A stretch of 29,799 nucleotides of DNA from a virus. Both the position numbers and the translations under genes were made by a program. The stretch's first letter is position 1; every line of letters starts with the position of its first letter. The DNA lies in the IMG/VR virus record IMGVR_UViG_3300042308_000438, positions 1 to 29,799 of that record; one strand, written 5' to 3'. The notes under the pieces were generated by a model. That model ran no database searches. It saw nothing but the letters and a program-made list of their open reading frames with translations, and was not told the origin of the DNA. Shown one piece after another: positions 16,914-29,799 of this stretch.

Positions 16914-17957
16914 ATGAAAAATAACAGCGCAAGGTTTCGACTAAAACAGGACGAAATCGAAATACTTATGCAGTACAGGGGCATTAAAAATGCAACAGAC
17001 GAAGCTGGAGTTAACGACAAAGACGTTAAACACGGATGGCTAAAAACAAAACAAGCAAGTTTATTTTTTAAGAACCCAAACTTTAAGGTTGAAGAACTAA
17101 ACGCAATCCAACAAATAAAAGACGAATGTATAAGCGAAGTTAAAAAATACGCTCCTAAATATACTGATACAGCAATAAAATATGATGTTGACACGGACGG
17201 ACATTTACTTGTTATAGATATTGCAGACTTACATATAGGAAAATTAGCAACAGCATTTGAAACAGGCGAAGAATATAATTCACAGATAGCCGTTAAACGT
17301 GCAAAAGACGGACTACAAGGCATTTTAAACAAAGCTAAAGGGTTTTATATTGACAAAGTTTTATTTGTTGCAGGAAACGACATATTGCACACCGATAACA
17401 CCAAACGAACTACAACAGGTGGAACACCACAAGACACGGACGGAATGTGGTATGACAATTTTTTAATGGCAAAGAATTTATATATTGAACTTTTAGAACA
17501 ATTAATAATTTTTGCAGACGTTGAAGTTGTTTACAATCCAAGTAACCACGATTTAACGCACGGTTTCTTTTTAATGCAATTGATAGAAGCACACTTTAGC
17601 AATTCAAGTATTCGTTTTAACGTAGATTTAAAGCATAGAAAAGCGTTTAGGTACGGAAGTAACTTGATAGGAACAACACACGGTGACGGAGCGAAAATCG
17701 AAAACTTACCTTTATTACTTGCAACGGAGTTTCCTATATTATGGAGCAAAACTAAACACCGTTATATTTATTCGCATCATATACACCACAAAACAAGCAA
17801 AGATTTCATTGGAGTAACATTTGAAACTTTACGCAGTCCTTCAGGTTCAGACAGTTGGCATCACAAAAACGGATATACAGGCGTTCCACGAGCGGTTGAA
17901 GGCTACGTCCACCACAAAGAATTTGGACAAATTGCACGACTTACACATATTTTTTAG
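16914..17957 (+). CDS. Calcineurin-like metallophosphoesterase (SbcD/Mre11-like), 347 aa
   Basis: All five metallophosphoesterase motifs are present: ADLHIG (Asp105, His107), GNDILH (Asp156), NPSNHD (Asn211, His212, Asp213), TTHGDG (His256) and YSHHIHH (His288-His292). Residues 1-95 form an N-terminal region with an HTH-like helical stretch (KQDEIEILMQYRGIKNATDEA). The two-metal centre could hydrolyse DNA ends or nucleotides; SbcD-type nucleases are the closest fit I can name. A partner SbcC ATPase is absent. It closes the late gene block: the first promoter of the regulatory region begins at the base after its stop. The substrate is unknown. Confidence 0.75.
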   Translation: MKNNSARFRLKQDEIEILMQYRGIKNATDEAGVNDKDVKHGWLKTKQASLFFKNPNFKVEELNAIQQIKDECISEVKKYAPKYTDTAIKYDVDTDGHLLVIDIADLHIGKLATAFETGEEYNSQIAVKRAKDGLQGILNKAKGFYIDKVLFVAGNDILHTDNTKRTTTGGTPQDTDGMWYDNFLMAKNLYIELLEQLIIFADVEVVYNPSNHDLTHGFFLMQLIEAHFSNSSIRFNVDLKHRKAFRYGSNLIGTTHGDGAKIENLPLLLATEFPILWSKTKHRYIYSHHIHHKTSKDFIGVTFETLRSPSGSDSWHHKNGYTGVPRAVEGYVHHKEFGQIARLTHIF

Positions 17958-17985
17958 TTTGATTAAATAATTTATACTATATTTG
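17958..17985 (+). promoter_or_regulatory. Bacteroidetes-type promoter for a short RNA
   Basis: TTTG at 17958-17961 and TATATTTG at 17978-17985 match the -33 and -7 (TAnnTTTG) elements of Bacteroidetes housekeeping promoters, 16 bases apart. The predicted start is near 17990. An intrinsic terminator follows within 60 bases, so the main product would be very short. Confidence 0.65.
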
Positions 17986-17989
17986 TCGT

Positions 17990-18047
17990 TCATAGTTAAT
18001 AAAAAGAAAACAGTTATAAGCTCCCCAGCACGTAGCTGTTTTTTTTT
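17990..18047 (+). ncRNA. Candidate small RNA of about 58 nt (promoter plus terminator, no gene)
   Basis: Between the promoter and the T run there is no reading frame of useful length. The RNA would consist of a short A-rich 5' tail and one hairpin with an unusual C-rich apex (GCT-CCCC-AGC, 18020-18029). The CCCC loop stands out in this AT-rich genome and could pair with G-rich targets. It could instead be only the terminator of the late operon with a chance promoter upstream. Confidence 0.4.
18007..18047 (+). terminator. Intrinsic terminator, end of late operon or of the short RNA
   Basis: AAAACAGTTA (18007-18016) pairs with TAGCTGTTTT (18033-18042) with one G-U pair, followed by T residues to 18047. 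The A-run on the left arm would give some activity on the other strand too, though nothing is encoded there. Confidence 0.8.
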
Positions 18048-18074
18048 GTGACAATAAACGGTTTAATTCCGATT

Positions 18075-18110
18075 AACTGTCAAGTAAAGCGCAACGTAAA
18101 CTTGACAGTT
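18075..18110. repeat. Perfect 11-bp inverted repeat in the regulatory region
   Basis: AACTGTCAAGT (18075-18085) is exactly inverted as ACTTGACAGTT (18100-18110), separated by 14 bases. No T run follows, so it is not a standard terminator. It could be an operator, a replication element or an RNA structure in a read-through transcript. Confidence 0.7.
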
Positions 18111-18165
18111 TCAGTTTATAACCTTAATAAAAACTAAAAATTTATGGGTTTTACCTTACAAGATG

Positions 18166-18180
18166 AGTACAATTTGTACT
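18166..18180. promoter_or_regulatory. 15-bp palindrome, operator candidate
   Basis: AGTACAA-T-TTGTACT is perfectly symmetric around one base. It lies about 100 bp upstream of the early promoter (18282-18312). Size and symmetry suit a dimeric HTH regulator; the phage's own candidate is the protein at 25855. The rest of 18111-18281 holds no other structure I can see apart from a weak 39-codon frame. Confidence 0.5.
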
Positions 18181-18281
18181 TATCCTTATTTAGAATGAAT
18201 ATAAATTACACTTTTTTTTATTTAGAAAACGTAATAAACACAAGGATTTTAAAAATAAATTAAAAATAATTGTTAAAAAGT

Positions 18282-18312
18282 ATTGTAGTTATTAAAATAG
18301 TATTTATATTTG
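18282..18312 (+). promoter_or_regulatory. Bacteroidetes-type early promoter
   Basis: ATTG at 18282-18285 and TATATTTG at 18305-18312 are 19 bases apart. The core and its downstream flank, TTATATTTGCATATA then TTATTAAC, are nearly repeated at the promoter before the ERF gene (23539-23568), so the two may be co-regulated. The predicted start is near 18318. The small-gene operon begins at 18345. Confidence 0.8.
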
Positions 18313-18344
18313 CATATAATTATTAACGAAACAATTTAAAAACT

Positions 18345-18560
18345 ATGAAAACAATTCAAAAAAACACAATTTTAAAAGCAACAGCAATTGGCGATAGCAA
18401 CTGCGTATGGACTGCAAAAGTAATTGAAAGAAAAGGCAATTTTGTTATTGCTTTAATACAAGGCGAAATTGTACGCAAAAAAGTAAACGTTTGGAACGGA
18501 GAAGAATTTGTTTATTTATTAGGTAGGTATTCAATGTGTCCAGTTTTTACAATAGCGTAA
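18345..18560 (+). CDS. Small early protein, 71 aa
   Basis: This is the first gene after the early promoter, with the leader AATTTAAAAACTATG at its start. The protein has beta-type sequence (NTILKATAIGDSNCVWTAKV, later FVIALIQGEIVRKKVNVW). It ends with YSMCPVFTIA and carries two cysteines. Small SH3-like barrels have similar strand spacing, but I cannot name a family. First early genes of phages often counter host functions; here that is only an inference from position. Confidence 0.6.
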   Translation: MKTIQKNTILKATAIGDSNCVWTAKVIERKGNFVIALIQGEIVRKKVNVWNGEEFVYLLGRYSMCPVFTIA

Positions 18561-19530: not shown

Positions 19531-19772
19531 AAGAAACAGCAGTAGAGTGGTTAGTTCACGAATTAGATAAACAAATGATTGAACGAGATAAGTTTGATGC
19601 TTTTGATTGGATATTTCAAGACTTAATTAAACAAGCCGAAAAAATGGAAAAGCAACAAATAGTTGAAGCACACGGAAACAAATTAAAGAAAAGTAAAGAC
19701 GAAGGAAATTACGAATATTGGTTTAGTGGCGAAGACTATTACAACAAAACATTTAAAAACACGAAACAATGA
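19527..19772 (+). CDS. Early hypothetical protein, 81 aa
   Basis: This helical protein starts MKETAVEWLVHELDKQMIER and contains WIFQDLIKQAEKMEKQQIVE. It ends with an aromatic, charged segment (YEYWFSGEDYYNKTFKNTKQ). Short phage proteins with the opening TAVEWLxxEL and a C-terminal YY...F tail are widespread in Bacteroidetes phages and prophages as I recall, without known function. It is coupled by ATGA on both sides, leading directly into the DnaA-like gene. Confidence 0.65.
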   Translation: MKETAVEWLVHELDKQMIERDKFDAFDWIFQDLIKQAEKMEKQQIVEAHGNKLKKSKDEGNYEYWFSGEDYYNKTFKNTKQ

Positions 19773-20125
19773 TAGAACTAATAAAAGAAATAATAGAACA
19801 AGACGGACTTGCACAAAAAAACCGAAAACGTGAAATAATACACAGGCGCATTTATTTGTTTAGGAAGCTACGCGAAGACGGACACACACTTAAAGGAATT
19901 GGAAGCCTGTTCAATATGAACCACGCTACAATATTACACGGTTTAAAAACTTACCAAGACTTAAGCGATGTAAACGACAAGTTATTTTTACACGACATTG
20001 AATACTACAAATTGCTTTTGAGTTTAGAACGTCCAGAACTTGACTTACGTAAAGAAATAAAAGAAGCAAAGAACTTAAAAGACTTGCGTAAAATTCAGTT
20101 AAGAATAAGAAATAAATTTTATTAA
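19769..20125 (+). CDS. DnaA domain IV-like DNA-binding protein, 118 aa
   Basis: Residues about 20-65 form a DnaA-type helix-turn-helix: REIIHRRIYLFRKLREDGHT, then LKGIGSLFNMNHATILHGLK (41-60). This is close to the DnaA signature helix that reads DnaA boxes. The ATPase domain of DnaA is absent, so the protein may bind the origin or host DnaA boxes without loading helicase. The C-terminal helices (LRKEIKEAKNLKDLRKIQL) may mediate dimers. It is the last gene before a structured leader and the replication initiator, a sensible place for an origin-related factor. Confidence 0.7.
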   Translation: MIELIKEIIEQDGLAQKNRKREIIHRRIYLFRKLREDGHTLKGIGSLFNMNHATILHGLKTYQDLSDVNDKLFLHDIEYYKLLLSLERPELDLRKEIKEAKNLKDLRKIQLRIRNKFY

Positions 20126-20157
20126 TTGTGTTTATGTTAAAATAATTATTAAATTTG
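20126..20157 (+). promoter_or_regulatory. Bacteroidetes-type promoter for the structured leader and replication genes
   Basis: TTG at 20126-20128 and TAAATTTG at 20150-20157, 21 bases apart, fit the TTG/TAnnTTTG pattern. The predicted start is near 20163, just before the structured RNA. The promoter begins at the base after the DnaA-like gene's stop codon. Confidence 0.6.
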
Positions 20158-20162
20158 TAAAC

Positions 20163-20252
20163 GGATTGGCTCGACACCATAAGTCCAAGAAGGAAATTAT
20201 TAGCCTTGTATTGAAGCAGAAGTCGAGTCCTGCGGAGATATGGGGCTTTTTT
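20163..20252 (+). ncRNA. Structured leader or small RNA of about 90 nt with terminator
   Basis: GGCTCGAC (20168-20175) pairs with GTCGAGTC (20222-20229), eight pairs with one G-U, closing a 46-base loop that holds a smaller AAGG/CCTT or CAAG/CTTG stem. At the 3' end GAGTCC (20225-20230) can instead pair with GGGGCT (20242-20247), just before six T residues, forming a terminator. The two pairings share bases and exclude each other, the layout of an attenuator. The segment is GC-rich against its surroundings and has no reading frame. It may regulate the replication operon at 20269 or act as a free small RNA. Confidence 0.5.
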
Positions 20253-20268
20253 ATTTAAAAAAATTAGT

Positions 20269-20442
20269 ATGATAAAAGAAGAAAAGTTTACAACAAATGA
20301 AGGAAGTATTTTTACTTTAAGTATTGGCGATATTACAGGTCGTTTATTGTTTAATACTGAAAAAGACACGTTGCAATTTACAAAGGATGAAGTTGCCGAA
20401 TTAATTTACATTTTACAATTAGAGTATGAGCGGATGGATTAA
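20269..20442 (+). CDS. Small hypothetical protein, 57 aa
   Basis: This 57-aa protein starts after an A-rich leader, 16 bases beyond the T run of the leader RNA. It reads MIKEEKFTTNEGSIFTLSIG and later LQFTKDEVAELIYILQLEYE, a beta hairpin followed by a helix. It overlaps the replication initiator gene by 17 bases, so the two are probably coupled. If the leader is an attenuator, this gene and the replication genes are its targets. The family is not recognised. Confidence 0.6.
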   Translation: MIKEEKFTTNEGSIFTLSIGDITGRLLFNTEKDTLQFTKDEVAELIYILQLEYERMD

Positions 20443-21064
20443 AATACACAGGAAGTTTTTAGATTGGCAATGGTTTGAAAAGCCAGAAGCAGTGCAATTA
20501 TTTGTTTATATGTTGTTAAAGGCAAATCACAAAGACGGAAATTGGCAAGGACACGAAATAAAAAAAGGACAATTTATTACTTCTGCACAAACAATTTCAA
20601 ACGATACAAAATTAAGTTTGCAGGTTGTTCGGACTTTATTAAAAAAGTTTGAATTAACAAATGAAATTATTGTAAAACCAACAAACAAATTTACTATGCT
20701 AACTATTTGTAAATATGAATGTTACCAAGATGAAAATGAAGACACTAACAAACAACTAACAAACAAACAACAAACAACTAACAAACAACTAACAACAAAC
20801 AAGAATGAAAAGAATAATAAAGAAAATATATATAGGGAATTTCAACACTTATTTATTACTGAAGACGAAGTGAAAAAGTTATTAGATAAACATACAATTA
20901 CACAAATAAACAACGTATTAAACGACATTGAAAACTACAAGCAAAATACTAAATATAAAAGTTTATATTTAACGGCTGTAAAATGGCTACAGAAAAACGA
21001 ACCAACTTTCGAAGGTATTTCACCTGAAGAAATAAAAGCAAGAAAATATGGACTTATTAAATAA
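20426..21064 (+). CDS. Replication initiator/primosome-type winged-helix protein, 212 aa
   Basis: The N-terminal 100 residues have the pattern of phage replication proteins of the DnaD/lambda-O-like winged-helix group: MSGWIKIHRKFLDWQWFEKP, KANHKDGNWQGHEIKKGQF, and a recognition region SLQVVRTLLKKFELTNEI. A linker (about 105-125) is a low-complexity TNKQL/TNKQQ stretch encoded by an 11-bp tandem repeat. The C-terminal domain (IYREFQHLFITEDEVKKLL...TAVKWLQKNEP) resembles DnaD-like C-terminal domains that contact the helicase. It lies directly upstream of, and overlaps, the helicase-like gene. It is likely to bind the origin and recruit the helicase. Confidence 0.75.
   Translation: MSGWIKIHRKFLDWQWFEKPEAVQLFVYMLLKANHKDGNWQGHEIKKGQFITSAQTISNDTKLSLQVVRTLLKKFELTNEIIVKPTNKFTMLTICKYECYQDENEDTNKQLTNKQQTTNKQLTTNKNEKNNKENIYREFQHLFITEDEVKKLLDKHTITQINNVLNDIENYKQNTKYKSLYLTAVKWLQKNEPTFEGISPEEIKARKYGLIK
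20744..20798. repeat. Five tandem 11-bp repeats inside the initiator gene (iteron candidates)
   Basis: The unit ACTAACAAACA occurs exactly at 20744, 20755 and 20777. Imperfect copies (nine of eleven bases) lie at 20766 and 20788. The five units are contiguous, so each falls on the same face of the helix. Eleven is not a multiple of three, so the encoded peptide is not a simple repeat. This points to selection on the DNA, as with the origin iterons inside lambda O. Replication slippage of a Gln/Asn/Thr linker is the alternative. Confidence 0.7.
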
Positions 21065-21935
21065 CGGAAGTGCTTTAGAGTATTTATTGAACTACAGGGA
21101 CGGCAAAATTAAACACGGACTGGAACTTGGAAATGGACTTGATGACTATTTAAAATTTAAACGTAAGCAAGTAAACATAATTTTAGGACACGACAACGTA
21201 GGTAAAACTTATTTCATAAATTGGTATTTTTTAGCACTTGCACTTAAACACAAATTGAAGTTTATAATCTGGAGCGGAGAAAACCAACACGGACAAATTT
21301 TGCGAGACTTAATACAAATGTATGCAGGAATAAATTTCAAACAATTAACACACGATGAAATTAGAAAATATTCAGCATATTTAGAACAATACTTTACATT
21401 TGTAAAAAACGACCGCCTGTACAAACACGAAGAACTATTTAAAATATTTGAACAAAGCGAATGTGATGTAGCACTTATAGACCCGTTTACAGGTTTAGAC
21501 AGAAATATGACTTACGAAGGTAACTACCAATTTATGAATGCAGCACGACAATTTGTAAACAAAACAGGAATGACAATTTACATAAACACGCACCCGAATA
21601 CTGAAAGCGGAAGGAGTTCAAATATTTATACTGAAGGAGACTTTAAAGGACATTTAAAAGCACCGTTAAAAGACCACGTTGAAGGTGGCAAAGCGTTCAC
21701 GAACCGTTGTGACGATATGATAGTAGTTCACAGACTAATAAAACACGATGTAATGAAATTTGTAACTTGGGTTTCAACTGAAAAAATAAAAGACGTAGAC
21801 ACAGGCGGTAAACACACTGGACTTAACGACCCTGTTTACTGTGAATACAATTACGGATTAGGTTTTAAAGTTTATGGAAAAGACGTAATTTCGGACTTTA
21901 GGCCAACAAATAAAATTAACATAATACCTTTTTAA
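21048..21935 (+). CDS. RecA/DnaB-fold replicative ATPase (RepA/Twinkle-like helicase), 295 aa
   Basis: Walker A is GHDNVGKT (47-54). The catalytic-type Glu lies in IIWSGENQ (Glu78), and Walker B is VALIDP with Asp145. A sensor-like INTHPNTESGR and an RCDD segment follow. The single RecA-like core without an N-terminal primase or DnaB helical domain resembles RepA-type and short DnaB-like phage helicases. It would unwind DNA at the fork after loading by the upstream initiator, whose gene it overlaps by 17 bases. No separate primase or polymerase is encoded, so host enzymes must complete the replisome. Confidence 0.75.
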   Translation: MDLLNNGSALEYLLNYRDGKIKHGLELGNGLDDYLKFKRKQVNIILGHDNVGKTYFINWYFLALALKHKLKFIIWSGENQHGQILRDLIQMYAGINFKQLTHDEIRKYSAYLEQYFTFVKNDRLYKHEELFKIFEQSECDVALIDPFTGLDRNMTYEGNYQFMNAARQFVNKTGMTIYINTHPNTESGRSSNIYTEGDFKGHLKAPLKDHVEGGKAFTNRCDDMIVVHRLIKHDVMKFVTWVSTEKIKDVDTGGKHTGLNDPVYCEYNYGLGFKVYGKDVISDFRPTNKINIIPF

Positions 21936-21936
21936 A

Positions 21937-22728
21937 ATGAAAGTAGCTTGGTTTAGTTGTGGAGTAACAAGCGCAGTAGCTTGTAAACTTGCAGTAGATG
22001 AATACGGAAAAGACAACGTTGAATTATTTTATATTGTTATTAATTCAGCGCACGAAGACAACGAACGATTTATTTTAGATTGCGAAAAATGGATTGGTAA
22101 AAAAATAAATAAAATTCAATCAAAAAAATTTAAAGACCAGTTTGAAGTAATTGAAAAAATTAAATATGTAAACGGAGTTAATGGAGCGCCTTGTACTTTG
22201 CACTTAAAAAAAAATGTAAGGTTTTTAATTGAAAAAAGCAATAATTTTGACGGACAAATATTTGGTTTTGAATTTGAAAAAAAAGAAATAAATAGAGCAA
22301 TTAGATTTAGTCAACAATATTCTGATGTCAAACCTTTATACCCTTTAATTGATAGAAAAATAACTAAAAGTCAATGTGCAGAAATTTTGTTAATTAACGG
22401 AATTAAACTACCTAAAATGTATGAGTTAGGTTTTCATAACAATAATTGTATTGGTTGCGTTAAAGGTGGAAAAGGTTATTGGAACCACGTCAAAAAACAC
22501 TTTCCAGAAACATTTGAAAAAATGAGTAATTTAGAACAAAAAATTGGAGCGACTTGCATAAAAAATAAATTTTTAAAAGATTTAAAACCTAACGAAGGAA
22601 AACACGAACCGCCAATAGTTCCAGACTGCGGTACTTTTTGCGAAATAGAATTTGCAGATATTATTGACAAAAACACGGAACGAGTATTAAACGGATATAC
22701 AACTATGAAACAATTAAAACTTTTTTAA
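21937..22728 (+). CDS. PAPS-reductase-like PP-loop protein, 263 aa
   Basis: The PP-loop is MKVAWFSCGVTSAVACK (SxGxTS at 7-12), the ATP pyrophosphatase motif of PAPS reductase and related enzymes, with Cys in place of the usual Gly. A Cys motif NNNCIGCVKGGKGYW and a C-terminal CGTFCEIEF could bind a metal cluster or carry sulfur. Phage members of this family are common but have no settled role; tRNA or DNA sulfur modification, as with DndC-type enzymes, is possible. No Dnd partner genes are present. The middle of the gene (about 22080-22560) uses GAT, AAT, CAT and TAT codons more than its neighbours, which may reflect recent transfer. Confidence 0.7.
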   Translation: MKVAWFSCGVTSAVACKLAVDEYGKDNVELFYIVINSAHEDNERFILDCEKWIGKKINKIQSKKFKDQFEVIEKIKYVNGVNGAPCTLHLKKNVRFLIEKSNNFDGQIFGFEFEKKEINRAIRFSQQYSDVKPLYPLIDRKITKSQCAEILLINGIKLPKMYELGFHNNNCIGCVKGGKGYWNHVKKHFPETFEKMSNLEQKIGATCIKNKFLKDLKPNEGKHEPPIVPDCGTFCEIEFADIIDKNTERVLNGYTTMKQLKLF

Positions 22729-26146: not shown

Positions 26147-26179
26147 TTTGTTATTGTTGAAAAATTAATCATACATTTG
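26147..26179 (+). promoter_or_regulatory. Bacteroidetes-type promoter for the sigma-like/late unit
   Basis: TACATTTG at 26172-26179 is a good -7 element. TTTG at 26147-26150 (21 bases away) or the TTG copies at 26154-26159 could serve as -33. The predicted start near 26185 leaves a leader of under 20 bases before the TTG start at 26202. No promoter was found downstream until 17958 across the circle, so this may feed packaging and late genes. Confidence 0.7.
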
Positions 26180-26201: not shown

Positions 26202-26741
26202 TTGGAATGGTTAACTAAAGTTGCAAAGCATCATAACGAATGGGTTAAAATGGTTAATCAATTTGGCGAATATTTCTTTGCTGAAGACATAGTACAGGAA
26301 ACTTATATTATGTTAATGAAGTGGAGCAGCGAAGAAAAACTATTTAAAGACGGAAACATAAGTAAGGGGTATATGTGGTTAGCTTTAAAAAATACTTTCC
26401 TTCAGCACGTGAACAAAAACAACAAAATCAAATTTATACCTTTAGACGATGTTTATAATTTAGCAGAAGAAAACAACACCGAAGAAAACGAAGCTTACAA
26501 CGACCTGTTAAATAATGTAGATTTAGAGTGTGATAGTTGGCACTGGTACGACAAACAATTATTTGAACTGTACAAAAACACGAATAAAAGTTTAAGACAA
26601 ATAAGTAGTGAAACTAACATAAGTGTAACAAGTATATTTAATACTGTTAAAACTTGTAAAAAACGAATTAAAAATAACGTAGGGGAAGACTACGAAGATT
26701 TTATAAATAAAGATTACGAACTAATAAAAAAGAAAAAATGA
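26202..26741 (+). CDS. Sigma-70-like transcription regulator, 179 aa
   Basis: Residues 20-45 (FGEYFFAEDIVQETYIMLMK) match sigma region 2 of ECF-type factors. Residues 129-156 (KSLRQISSETNISVTSIFNTV, then KTCKKRIK) form a region 4 helix-turn-helix. The middle is acidic and linker-like. I recall this family as a conserved DNA-binding/sigma-like protein in Bacteroidetes phages. The only plausible start is TTG at 26202. It is first in the unit that leads to packaging and virion genes, so a role in switching on late transcription is a reasonable inference. No distinct late promoter motif has been found yet. Confidence 0.7.
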   Translation: MEWLTKVAKHHNEWVKMVNQFGEYFFAEDIVQETYIMLMKWSSEEKLFKDGNISKGYMWLALKNTFLQHVNKNNKIKFIPLDDVYNLAEENNTEENEAYNDLLNNVDLECDSWHWYDKQLFELYKNTNKSLRQISSETNISVTSIFNTVKTCKKRIKNNVGEDYEDFINKDYELIKKKK

Positions 26742-29124: not shown

Positions 29125-29799
29125 TAAAATCTTATCTTTAAAAAAAAGAATTAAAATAATTCAAGGCGGTACTTCAGCGGGTAAAACTTTTGGGGTTATT
29201 CCTATTTTAATTGATATTGCAATGAAGTCTAATGATTTAGAAATTAGCGTAGTTGCCGAAAGTATTCCGCATTTAAGACGTGGAGCGTTAAAGGATTTTC
29301 TTAAAATAATGAAATGGACGGATAGATATATAGACGTTTCATTTAACAAATCATTATTACGATACGAATTTTCAAACGGTTCTTATATAGAATTTTTTAG
29401 CGCAGACGATAGTTCAAAATTACGTGGAGCTCGTAGAGATATACTTTACATAAACGAATGTAACAACGTAACATTTGAAGCATATAACGAACTTGCAATA
29501 CGTACAAAAAAACGAATATACCTTGACTTTAACCCAGCAAATGAATTTTGGGTACATACCGAACTAAAAGACGAACCCGACACAGACTTTTTAATTTTAA
29601 CGTACAAGGACAACGAAGCACTCGATGAACGAATAGTAGCGGAAATAGAAAAGAACCGTTTAAAAGCCACGACAAGCAGTTATTGGGCTAATTGGTGGCG
29701 AGTATATGGAGAAGGACTTGTCGGAATGTTAGAAGGAGTTATATTTAGTAATTGGAAACTAATTGACACAATACCGCCTGAAGCACGGTTACTTGGTTA
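29099..29799 (+). CDS. terL: Terminase large subunit, N-terminal part (continues at base 1)
   Basis: This is the ATPase half of the packaging motor. The ATG at 29099 is the only ATG after an in-frame TAG at 29075 and gives MLIRTTAINKILSLKKR, which fits the family's usual short N-terminus. Walker A is GGTSAGKT (23-30), and Walker B with its catalytic Glu is ILYINECN (Glu120). A coupling motif region (YLDFNPANEFW) follows. The frame runs off the window end and continues in register at base 3 to the stop at 587, giving 386 aa. The start lies 26 bases inside the HNH gene, which shows how closely that insert is fitted. Confidence 0.93.
   Translation, partial: MLIRTTAINKILSLKKRIKIIQGGTSAGKTFGVIPILIDIAMKSNDLEISVVAESIPHLRRGALKDFLKIMKWTDRYIDVSFNKSLLRYEFSNGSYIEFFSADDSSKLRGARRDILYINECNNVTFEAYNELAIRTKKRIYLDFNPANEFWVHTELKDEPDTDFLILTYKDNEALDERIVAEIEKNRLKATTSSYWANWWRVYGEGLVGMLEGVIFSNWKLIDTIPPEARLLG
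29673..29799. repeat. Terminal direct repeat, right copy
   Basis: These bases are identical to 1-127 with no mismatch. See the left copy: the overlap marks the join of a circular map and should be counted once. Confidence 0.95.

Follow-up and report, generated by a model that had tools for sequence, protein, structure and literature searches.

The window analysed here is a complete IMG/VR record (IMGVR_UViG_3300042308_000438) of 29,799 bases and encodes terminase, portal and tape-measure genes together with a replication and recombination module. A gene of 118 aa with a DnaA C-terminal helix-turn-helix (19769..20125, + strand; Pfam Bac_DnaA_C, E 1.9e-6, under the Pfam gathering score) is followed by a gap at 20126-20268, which was confirmed to lack a + strand gene, as an earlier sequence-only reading of the window had reported. 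The operon downstream of the gap opens with a 57 aa gene of unassigned function (20269..20442, + strand) and continues with a DnaD-like helicase loader (20426..21064, + strand; phrog_2514, E 5e-29) and a helicase of the primase/helicase family (21048..21935, + strand; phrog_239, E 2.7e-22). A phosphoadenosine phosphosulfate reductase-like gene (phrog_424) lies within the same replication operon at 21937-22728, and its position varies among relatives. The helicase resembles primase/polymerases of Cellulophaga phages, with relatives also in Maribacter phages, and these relatives and the promoter type described below (TAnnTTTG) suggest a host in the Bacteroidota, probably in the family Flavobacteriaceae. 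The region between the DnaA-like gene and the operon had no DNA match among named phage records.

Several other features of the window were recorded. Part of a terminase large subunit (phrog_5653) is encoded at 54-587, and the end of the window (29139-29799) reads, as judged by eye only, like the N-terminal ATPase half of a terminase (GGTSAGKT); because both ends carry terminase parts, the record may represent an entire genome opened inside the terminase gene. A protein weakly similar to an RNA polymerase sigma factor family (phrog_1740, E 1.7e-6) is encoded at 26202-26741, downstream of a promoter-like TACATTTG at 26172. A second conserved promoter-plus-terminator unit was found at 17978-18049, consisting of TATATTTG and then ~65 nt ending in GAAAACAGTTATAAGCTCCCCAGCACGTAGCTGTTTTTTTTT. 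It occurred in 40 distinct contexts with a covarying stem pair (GTTG..CAGC, GTTA..TAGC) and variable non-coding DNA downstream, and it resembles an independent small RNA gene. The adjacent variable non-coding stretch (18050-18345) contains a perfect 11-bp inverted repeat (AACTGTCAAGT/ACTTGACAGTT; 18075-18085/18100-18110) and further repeats, and is possibly an origin or regulatory region.

The promoter postulated for the gap was located at 20150..20157 (+ strand), where TAAATTTG corresponds to the Bacteroidota -7 element TAnnTTTG and not to a sigma-70 site; the element is kept before the RNA in relatives despite differing upstream genes. Because the G of the consensus TAnnTTTG sits at -5 in F. 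johnsoniae (PMC6847099), transcription was predicted to start near 20162 (+ strand), one base 5' of the first hairpin. Positions 20150-20252 thus comprise the promoter and a predicted RNA of ~91 nt, in which a hairpin (P1) is connected by a conserved linker to a long terminator hairpin (P2, a GAA/GGA internal loop, P3 and six T).

All parts of the RNA lie on the + strand. P1 pairs GGATT (20163..20167) with AGTCC (20182..20186), with two-sided changes in all 5 pairs. The P1 loop contains K (GGCTCGAC, 20168..20175), which pairs with K' (see below), and the unpaired, conserved ACCATA (20176..20181; consensus AYYATA). A single-stranded linker (AAGAAGGAAATTATT, consensus AAAGGAATTATT; 20187..20201), identified by column conservation, leads into the 5' arm of P2 (20202..20212), which pairs with 20237..20247 as judged by the minimum free energy fold and by covariation. 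The internal loop has a GAA side (20213..20215; its G and the A after it do not vary over 91 distinct rows) and a conserved GGA side (20234..20236), and P3 pairs GCAG (20216..20219) with CTGC (20230..20233), again with two-sided changes in all 4 pairs. The apical loop of the terminator consists of a two-base linker (AA, 20220..20221; first A invariant) and K' (GTCGAGTC, 20222..20229). The T-run (20247..20252), whose first T also closes P2, belongs to a conserved T-rich tail, and is followed by an A-rich spacer (20253..20268) that forms the translation initiation region of the first gene; a start codon follows closely in relatives as well. The locus therefore has the arrangement of an attenuator leader, with promoter, structured leader and intrinsic terminator directly 5' of a gene, and the conserved parts keep their order and spacing. 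From this arrangement, a ~91-nt transcript and read-through into the operon would be expected.

The sequence-only reading had placed an 8-bp long-range stem at 20168-20175 and 20222-20229, and this stem was recovered exactly there, with one G-U pair; it connects the loop of P1 with the terminator's apical loop. The same reading had proposed a terminator hairpin with six T; the hairpin and T-run exist, and the 5' arm that it named does not stand. The named arm (~20225-20230 with 20242-20247) forms pairs only after a one-base shift (20226-20230 with 20243-20247) and is not conserved, with 45.8% of cells paired and slid versions pairing better. The conserved and energetically preferred terminator is instead formed by 20202-20212 with 20237-20247 plus 20216-20219 with 20230-20233. 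The further proposal of mutually exclusive hairpins, in which the terminator would reuse bases of the long-range stem, found no support in that form, as the two stems share no bases. As K' lies in the apical loop and the arms do not overlap, both stems can coexist as a kissing-loop pseudoknot.

To place these helices in a comparative frame, 160 viral loci were fetched with two protein queries, the helicase loader encoded 3' of the leader and the DnaA-like protein encoded 5' of it, and the majority carried the leader. For 62 distinct leaders, aligned by plain MAFFT with no structure imposed (A1), pairing was assessed in P1, P2, P3 and the kissing helix. Standard pairs filled 92.2% of cells, compared with 69.1% after shuffling and at most 43.8% with slid partners; 401 double changes were counted over the four helices, 24 of the 28 pairs had changes on both sides, and the covariation score was 0.637 against 0.212 for shuffles (pairing and covariation counts here and in the next alignment span related, mostly metagenome-assembled sequences and not independent events, and the margins are very large). 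A covariance model built without the kissing helix (R1) was then used to realign 92 matches (A2). The kissing helix, absent from this model, was paired in 99.3% of A2 cells, with 168 double changes and a covariation score of 0.645 against 0.180. The kissing words differ completely between groups, as in GGCTCGAC/GTCGAGCC, CGTCTAAC/GTTAGACG, GGTCTCAC/GTGAGACC, CATCCTAC/GTAGGATG, CCTTCGAC/GTCGAAGG and GGCTGGAC/GTCCAGCC. G-U pairs were used freely among the covarying types of P2, which supports its pairing as RNA. Unpaired bases were conserved too, namely AYYAUA in the P1 loop, the linker AAAGGAAUUAUU, the GAA/GGA internal loop and the invariant A that opens the terminator loop.

The single-sequence folding energy of the window was unremarkable relative to shuffles (z -1.2 and -0.3), and scans for sigma-70 promoters and generic terminators gave no excess over shuffles, sigma-70 being the wrong promoter type for Bacteroidota. 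The case for structure rests on comparison, since the window alone folds no better than shuffles. By that comparison the paired bases, whose lack of conservation in relatives had been named as grounds for discarding the structure, covary, and a chance origin of the fold was ruled out. The earlier description of a structured leader that heads the replication operon and contains its own terminator is likewise supported, and is conserved in relatives.

K directly follows the 5' strand of P1, K' runs straight into the 3' strand of P3, and the links that cross back are only the six-base AYYAUA and the two-base link. In nearly all rows the terminator loop is ten bases long. Loops of almost constant length whose unpaired bases are conserved favour simultaneous folding, and the data fit a pseudoknot in which all helices would form together better than two exclusive folds. 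Folding order was followed in 91 distinct sequences by a nested (pseudoknot-free) calculation, which cannot decide whether timing sets the outcome. In this model the kiss dominated the nascent RNA before the 3' arm of P2 was made (mean pairing probability 0.87-0.96 for the eight pairs), and P1, P2 and P3 dominated once that arm was complete. Because the long-range stem comes first in the model, and P1 and the terminator only with the complete 3' arm, a weaker form of the exclusive-hairpin proposal, in which timing would decide between stop and read-through, is plausible. The terminator hairpin is strong (mean -17 kcal/mol). Other than the kiss, no conserved competing antiterminator was found. 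An AAGG/CCUU hairpin in the linker was considered for this role and rejected, being only ~30% probable in each of two registers and absent from one group. A leader peptide was also dropped, since inspection showed that reading frames crossing the RNA are not conserved from group to group.

The order in relatives was always the end of an upstream gene, TAnnTTTG, the RNA, a short A-rich spacer and the start codon of an early gene. All 149 distinct long-loop contexts that extended far enough had an ORF start 0-21 nt past the T-run, compared with 7.6% of random positions. Searches anchored on the RNA and not on a gene gave the same placement, with the start codon still closely downstream. The spacer is too short for a second promoter, and the operon should therefore need read-through. 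The genes headed by the RNA are early and mostly concerned with replication, the first being variously a DnaD-like loader, an HNH endonuclease, a BT4734-type primase, a DUF6291 protein, a ParB/methyltransferase or a member of several small families. The upstream gene varies too, the DnaA-like gene being the usual neighbour and not a universal one. The unit of promoter, RNA and spacer is modular: replication genes of many unrelated kinds follow it, and one phage can have two copies with differing words. Among 30 viral records searched whole, 26 contained the RNA, nearly always as one strong copy. A 47-kb record (G001, the record of L004) carries two leaders of different type (17061-17158 and 45537-45635) and two DnaA-like genes, and is either two phages joined in assembly or a genuine double module.

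A compact class of leader was obtained from loci of BT4734-type primases, and a terminator-loop scan gave 60 stretches. In this class the P1 loop consists of just a six- to eight-base word (AAGCAG, AATGCAG, AAGGCAG) with no AYYAUA motif. R1 matched compact members weakly (E 0.02 to 0.3; the L199 copy, E 7e-5), and common descent of the compact and long-loop classes is likely. Many compact leaders, and two long-loop leaders (L363 and L372), repeat the P1-loop word just 5' of the downstream start codon. Where a start-region word was present in the compact class it matched the leader's own P1-loop word in 24 of 24 distinct cases (AAGCAG 12, ATGCAG 9, AGGCAG 3), a count in which only the remaining position tests the match independently, as the scan pattern fixed CTGC in K'. 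The helix between K' and the start region covaries within the class. The start-region copy was absent from 14 other compact leaders, and no copy of K was found in the initiation region of the window's first gene or of other A2 rows. In 8 of 8 phages with a compact leader before ParB, a long-loop leader lies ~1.7 kb further on, and K differs between the two in the six that were read. The reverse order of classes was observed on the - strand of L199 (13.9 kb; leaders at 21-110 and 1892-1987), in which a long-loop leader precedes a ParB/methyltransferase gene and a compact leader (GGGCAG/CTGCCC) follows ~1.8 kb on.

The leader had been assigned to no known class, and searches agreed with this. 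No Rfam 15 family matched in the window and nothing relevant was matched in four relatives, at gathering and permissive thresholds. The sole weak Rfam match, the trpB motif (RF04312), scored 18.5 bits against a gathering score of 59 and was rejected. IsrK is grouped with the C4-type phage antisense RNAs, and for C4/IsrK-type RNAs there was no Rfam match in the window or the four relatives. A type III toxin-antitoxin RNA (ToxI-like) was also rejected, the unit being single and unrepeated and the first genes encoding replication, HNH, ParB or small unassigned proteins. Named phages contained only short chance words of the RNA, and an intergenic match in Polaribacter phage P12002L was rejected on testing with the model. 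A pattern scan of bacterial genomes returned 50 stretches, none containing the RNA. Model searches of ~400 genomes each of the family, phylum and order returned one divergent copy, in a contig of one Flavobacteriaceae genome, before a replication initiation protein and with a 10-bp kiss (AGCCTTCGAC/GTCGAAGGCT). No relatives of the L361 replication protein were found in viral contigs. The near absence from bacterial genomes suggests that sequenced species seldom carry these phages in integrated form, or that their hosts are unsampled. The open-access literature yielded analogues only and no description of such an RNA, and the leader represents a new RNA family, probably with a job of a known kind.

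With moderate confidence, the leader is interpreted as a cis-acting transcription attenuator of this new family, heading early, mostly replication, operons of Bacteroidota phages. Attenuation is the best reading because of where the RNA lies, because the spacer cannot fit another promoter and because the terminator is part of the RNA. RNA polymerase would start at ~20162, P1 would fold and display K in its loop, and the emerging K' would pair with K to give the 8-bp kissing helix. The P2/P3 hairpin and T-run would then either stop transcription, leaving the ~91-nt RNA, or be passed into the loader and helicase genes. The most likely logic, put forward as a plausibility argument, is that K' held by P1 would be the ON state and K' freed the OFF state: with the kiss already formed, the hairpin would zip up more slowly around its own loop. 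The same assignment is suggested by the K copies at start codons, since a freed K' would both permit the terminator and cover the start region, each of which is OFF. Release of K' might be brought about by a phage protein, by an RNA or by nothing at all. In compact relatives, a freed K' could also block translation by pairing with the K copy next to the downstream start codon; such control would not apply to the first gene of the window, as its initiation region holds no K copy. A broader scheme is offered tentatively and would more probably fail than hold. It takes the presence of one RNA word in up to three places (the P1 loop, its complement in the terminator loop and the start region) as an RNA-only switch, in which the terminated short RNA would act on the leaders of other copies. 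Output of the replication genes, and perhaps exclusion during co-infection, would then depend on matching words, with K variants as specificity groups.

A free-standing phage sRNA, with its own promoter and terminator, might instead act in trans on host or phage targets while the operon lives on constitutive read-through. This is unlikely. Promoter, compact RNA with a 5' hairpin and terminator do amount to a complete ~91-nt sRNA gene, and a strong terminator directly before essential genes also fits such a gene with low read-through. The terminator loop is a usual place of the seed in sRNAs, and K' is located there; in compact relatives a target-like copy of K stands beside the start codon. 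The RNA was nevertheless found only at operon heads, at the short distance from the start codon given above, and two different leaders in one phage each stand at their own operon. Two leaders with different K in one phage suit cis elements better than one sRNA gene. Targets in trans were also sought: the window has no other CTCGAC, and in long-loop phages K was not enriched at start codons; K copies in these phages numbered 13, fewer than the 38.7 of letter shuffles (which do not preserve dinucleotides).

Less likely again is a riboswitch proper, in which the kissing fold and the conserved loop bases (AYYAUA, AA), linker and GA loop would form a ligand or protein pocket setting termination, for example as feedback by a replication protein. 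Strong conservation of unpaired bases alongside covarying helices is seen in aptamers; loop lengths are nearly constant, and the presence of two linkers that cross grooves implies that the tertiary fold is intricate. Against such a pocket, the genes that follow the leader are unrelated, so that no single product or metabolite is implied, and the AYYAUA loop is missing from the compact class.

It is very improbable that the RNA is simply a structured 5' end with an insulating terminator, protecting RNA ends or stopping upstream transcription with no switch. The RNA does begin and end in stable hairpins, and upstream genes run head to tail into it, but an insulator needs neither a compensated 8-bp loop-loop helix nor a promoter 5' of the terminator, and it leaves the K copies beside start codons unexplained. 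A DNA-level element (an origin iteron or a protein-binding inverted repeat) was given next to no weight: the site adjoins a gene with a DnaA-like DNA-binding domain in the replication region, but the many G-U pairs among the covarying types of P2 keep RNA pairing and not DNA pairing, the element always lies in one orientation between promoter and T-run, and other upstream genes occur too.

As a cis-acting attenuator, the leader can be set beside four known systems. In RepZ-type plasmid leaders (IncI/IncB), pairing of a leader loop controls the replication initiator, translationally and through a separate antisense RNA. The phage leader shares the loop pairing before a replication gene, but it has a built-in terminator and no candidate antisense RNA was seen. 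In the Gifsy-1 prophage, the short RNA IsrK and a read-through mRNA share one promoter and pair (PMC4825925). IsrK is likewise a phage RNA with its own promoter and terminator in which pairing of RNA words controls a downstream gene (PMC4825925); the phage concerned is a temperate one infecting Salmonella, and IsrK leads to an antiterminator, whereas the leader described here has no Rfam match, pairs within itself and mostly heads a replication operon. The put RNA of the lambdoid phage HK022 is similar as a structure of nascent early phage transcripts that governs termination in cis (PMC9378689), but put suppresses pausing and termination and is itself no terminator, whereas here the terminator lies within the fold. 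Riboswitch leaders with a pseudoknot connected to a terminator, such as SAM-II leaders, which release a terminated sRNA, resemble the phage leader in their pseudoknot, the terminator before or near the gene, a short RNA and a read-through mRNA as the two products (both inferred for the phage leader) and possible start-codon control (PMC9373788). The phage leader differs from them in that its genes are not metabolic, no Rfam class was matched and no ligand is assigned.

Almost nothing is known of early gene control in uncultured Bacteroidota phages, and the leader represents a widespread, undescribed structured RNA family in their early control region. Covariation is strong enough for the mechanism to be tested directly by point and compensatory mutants. 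Because the unit is modular, it may be a general switch for early genes and could provide a useful kissing-loop attenuator for Bacteroidota genetics.
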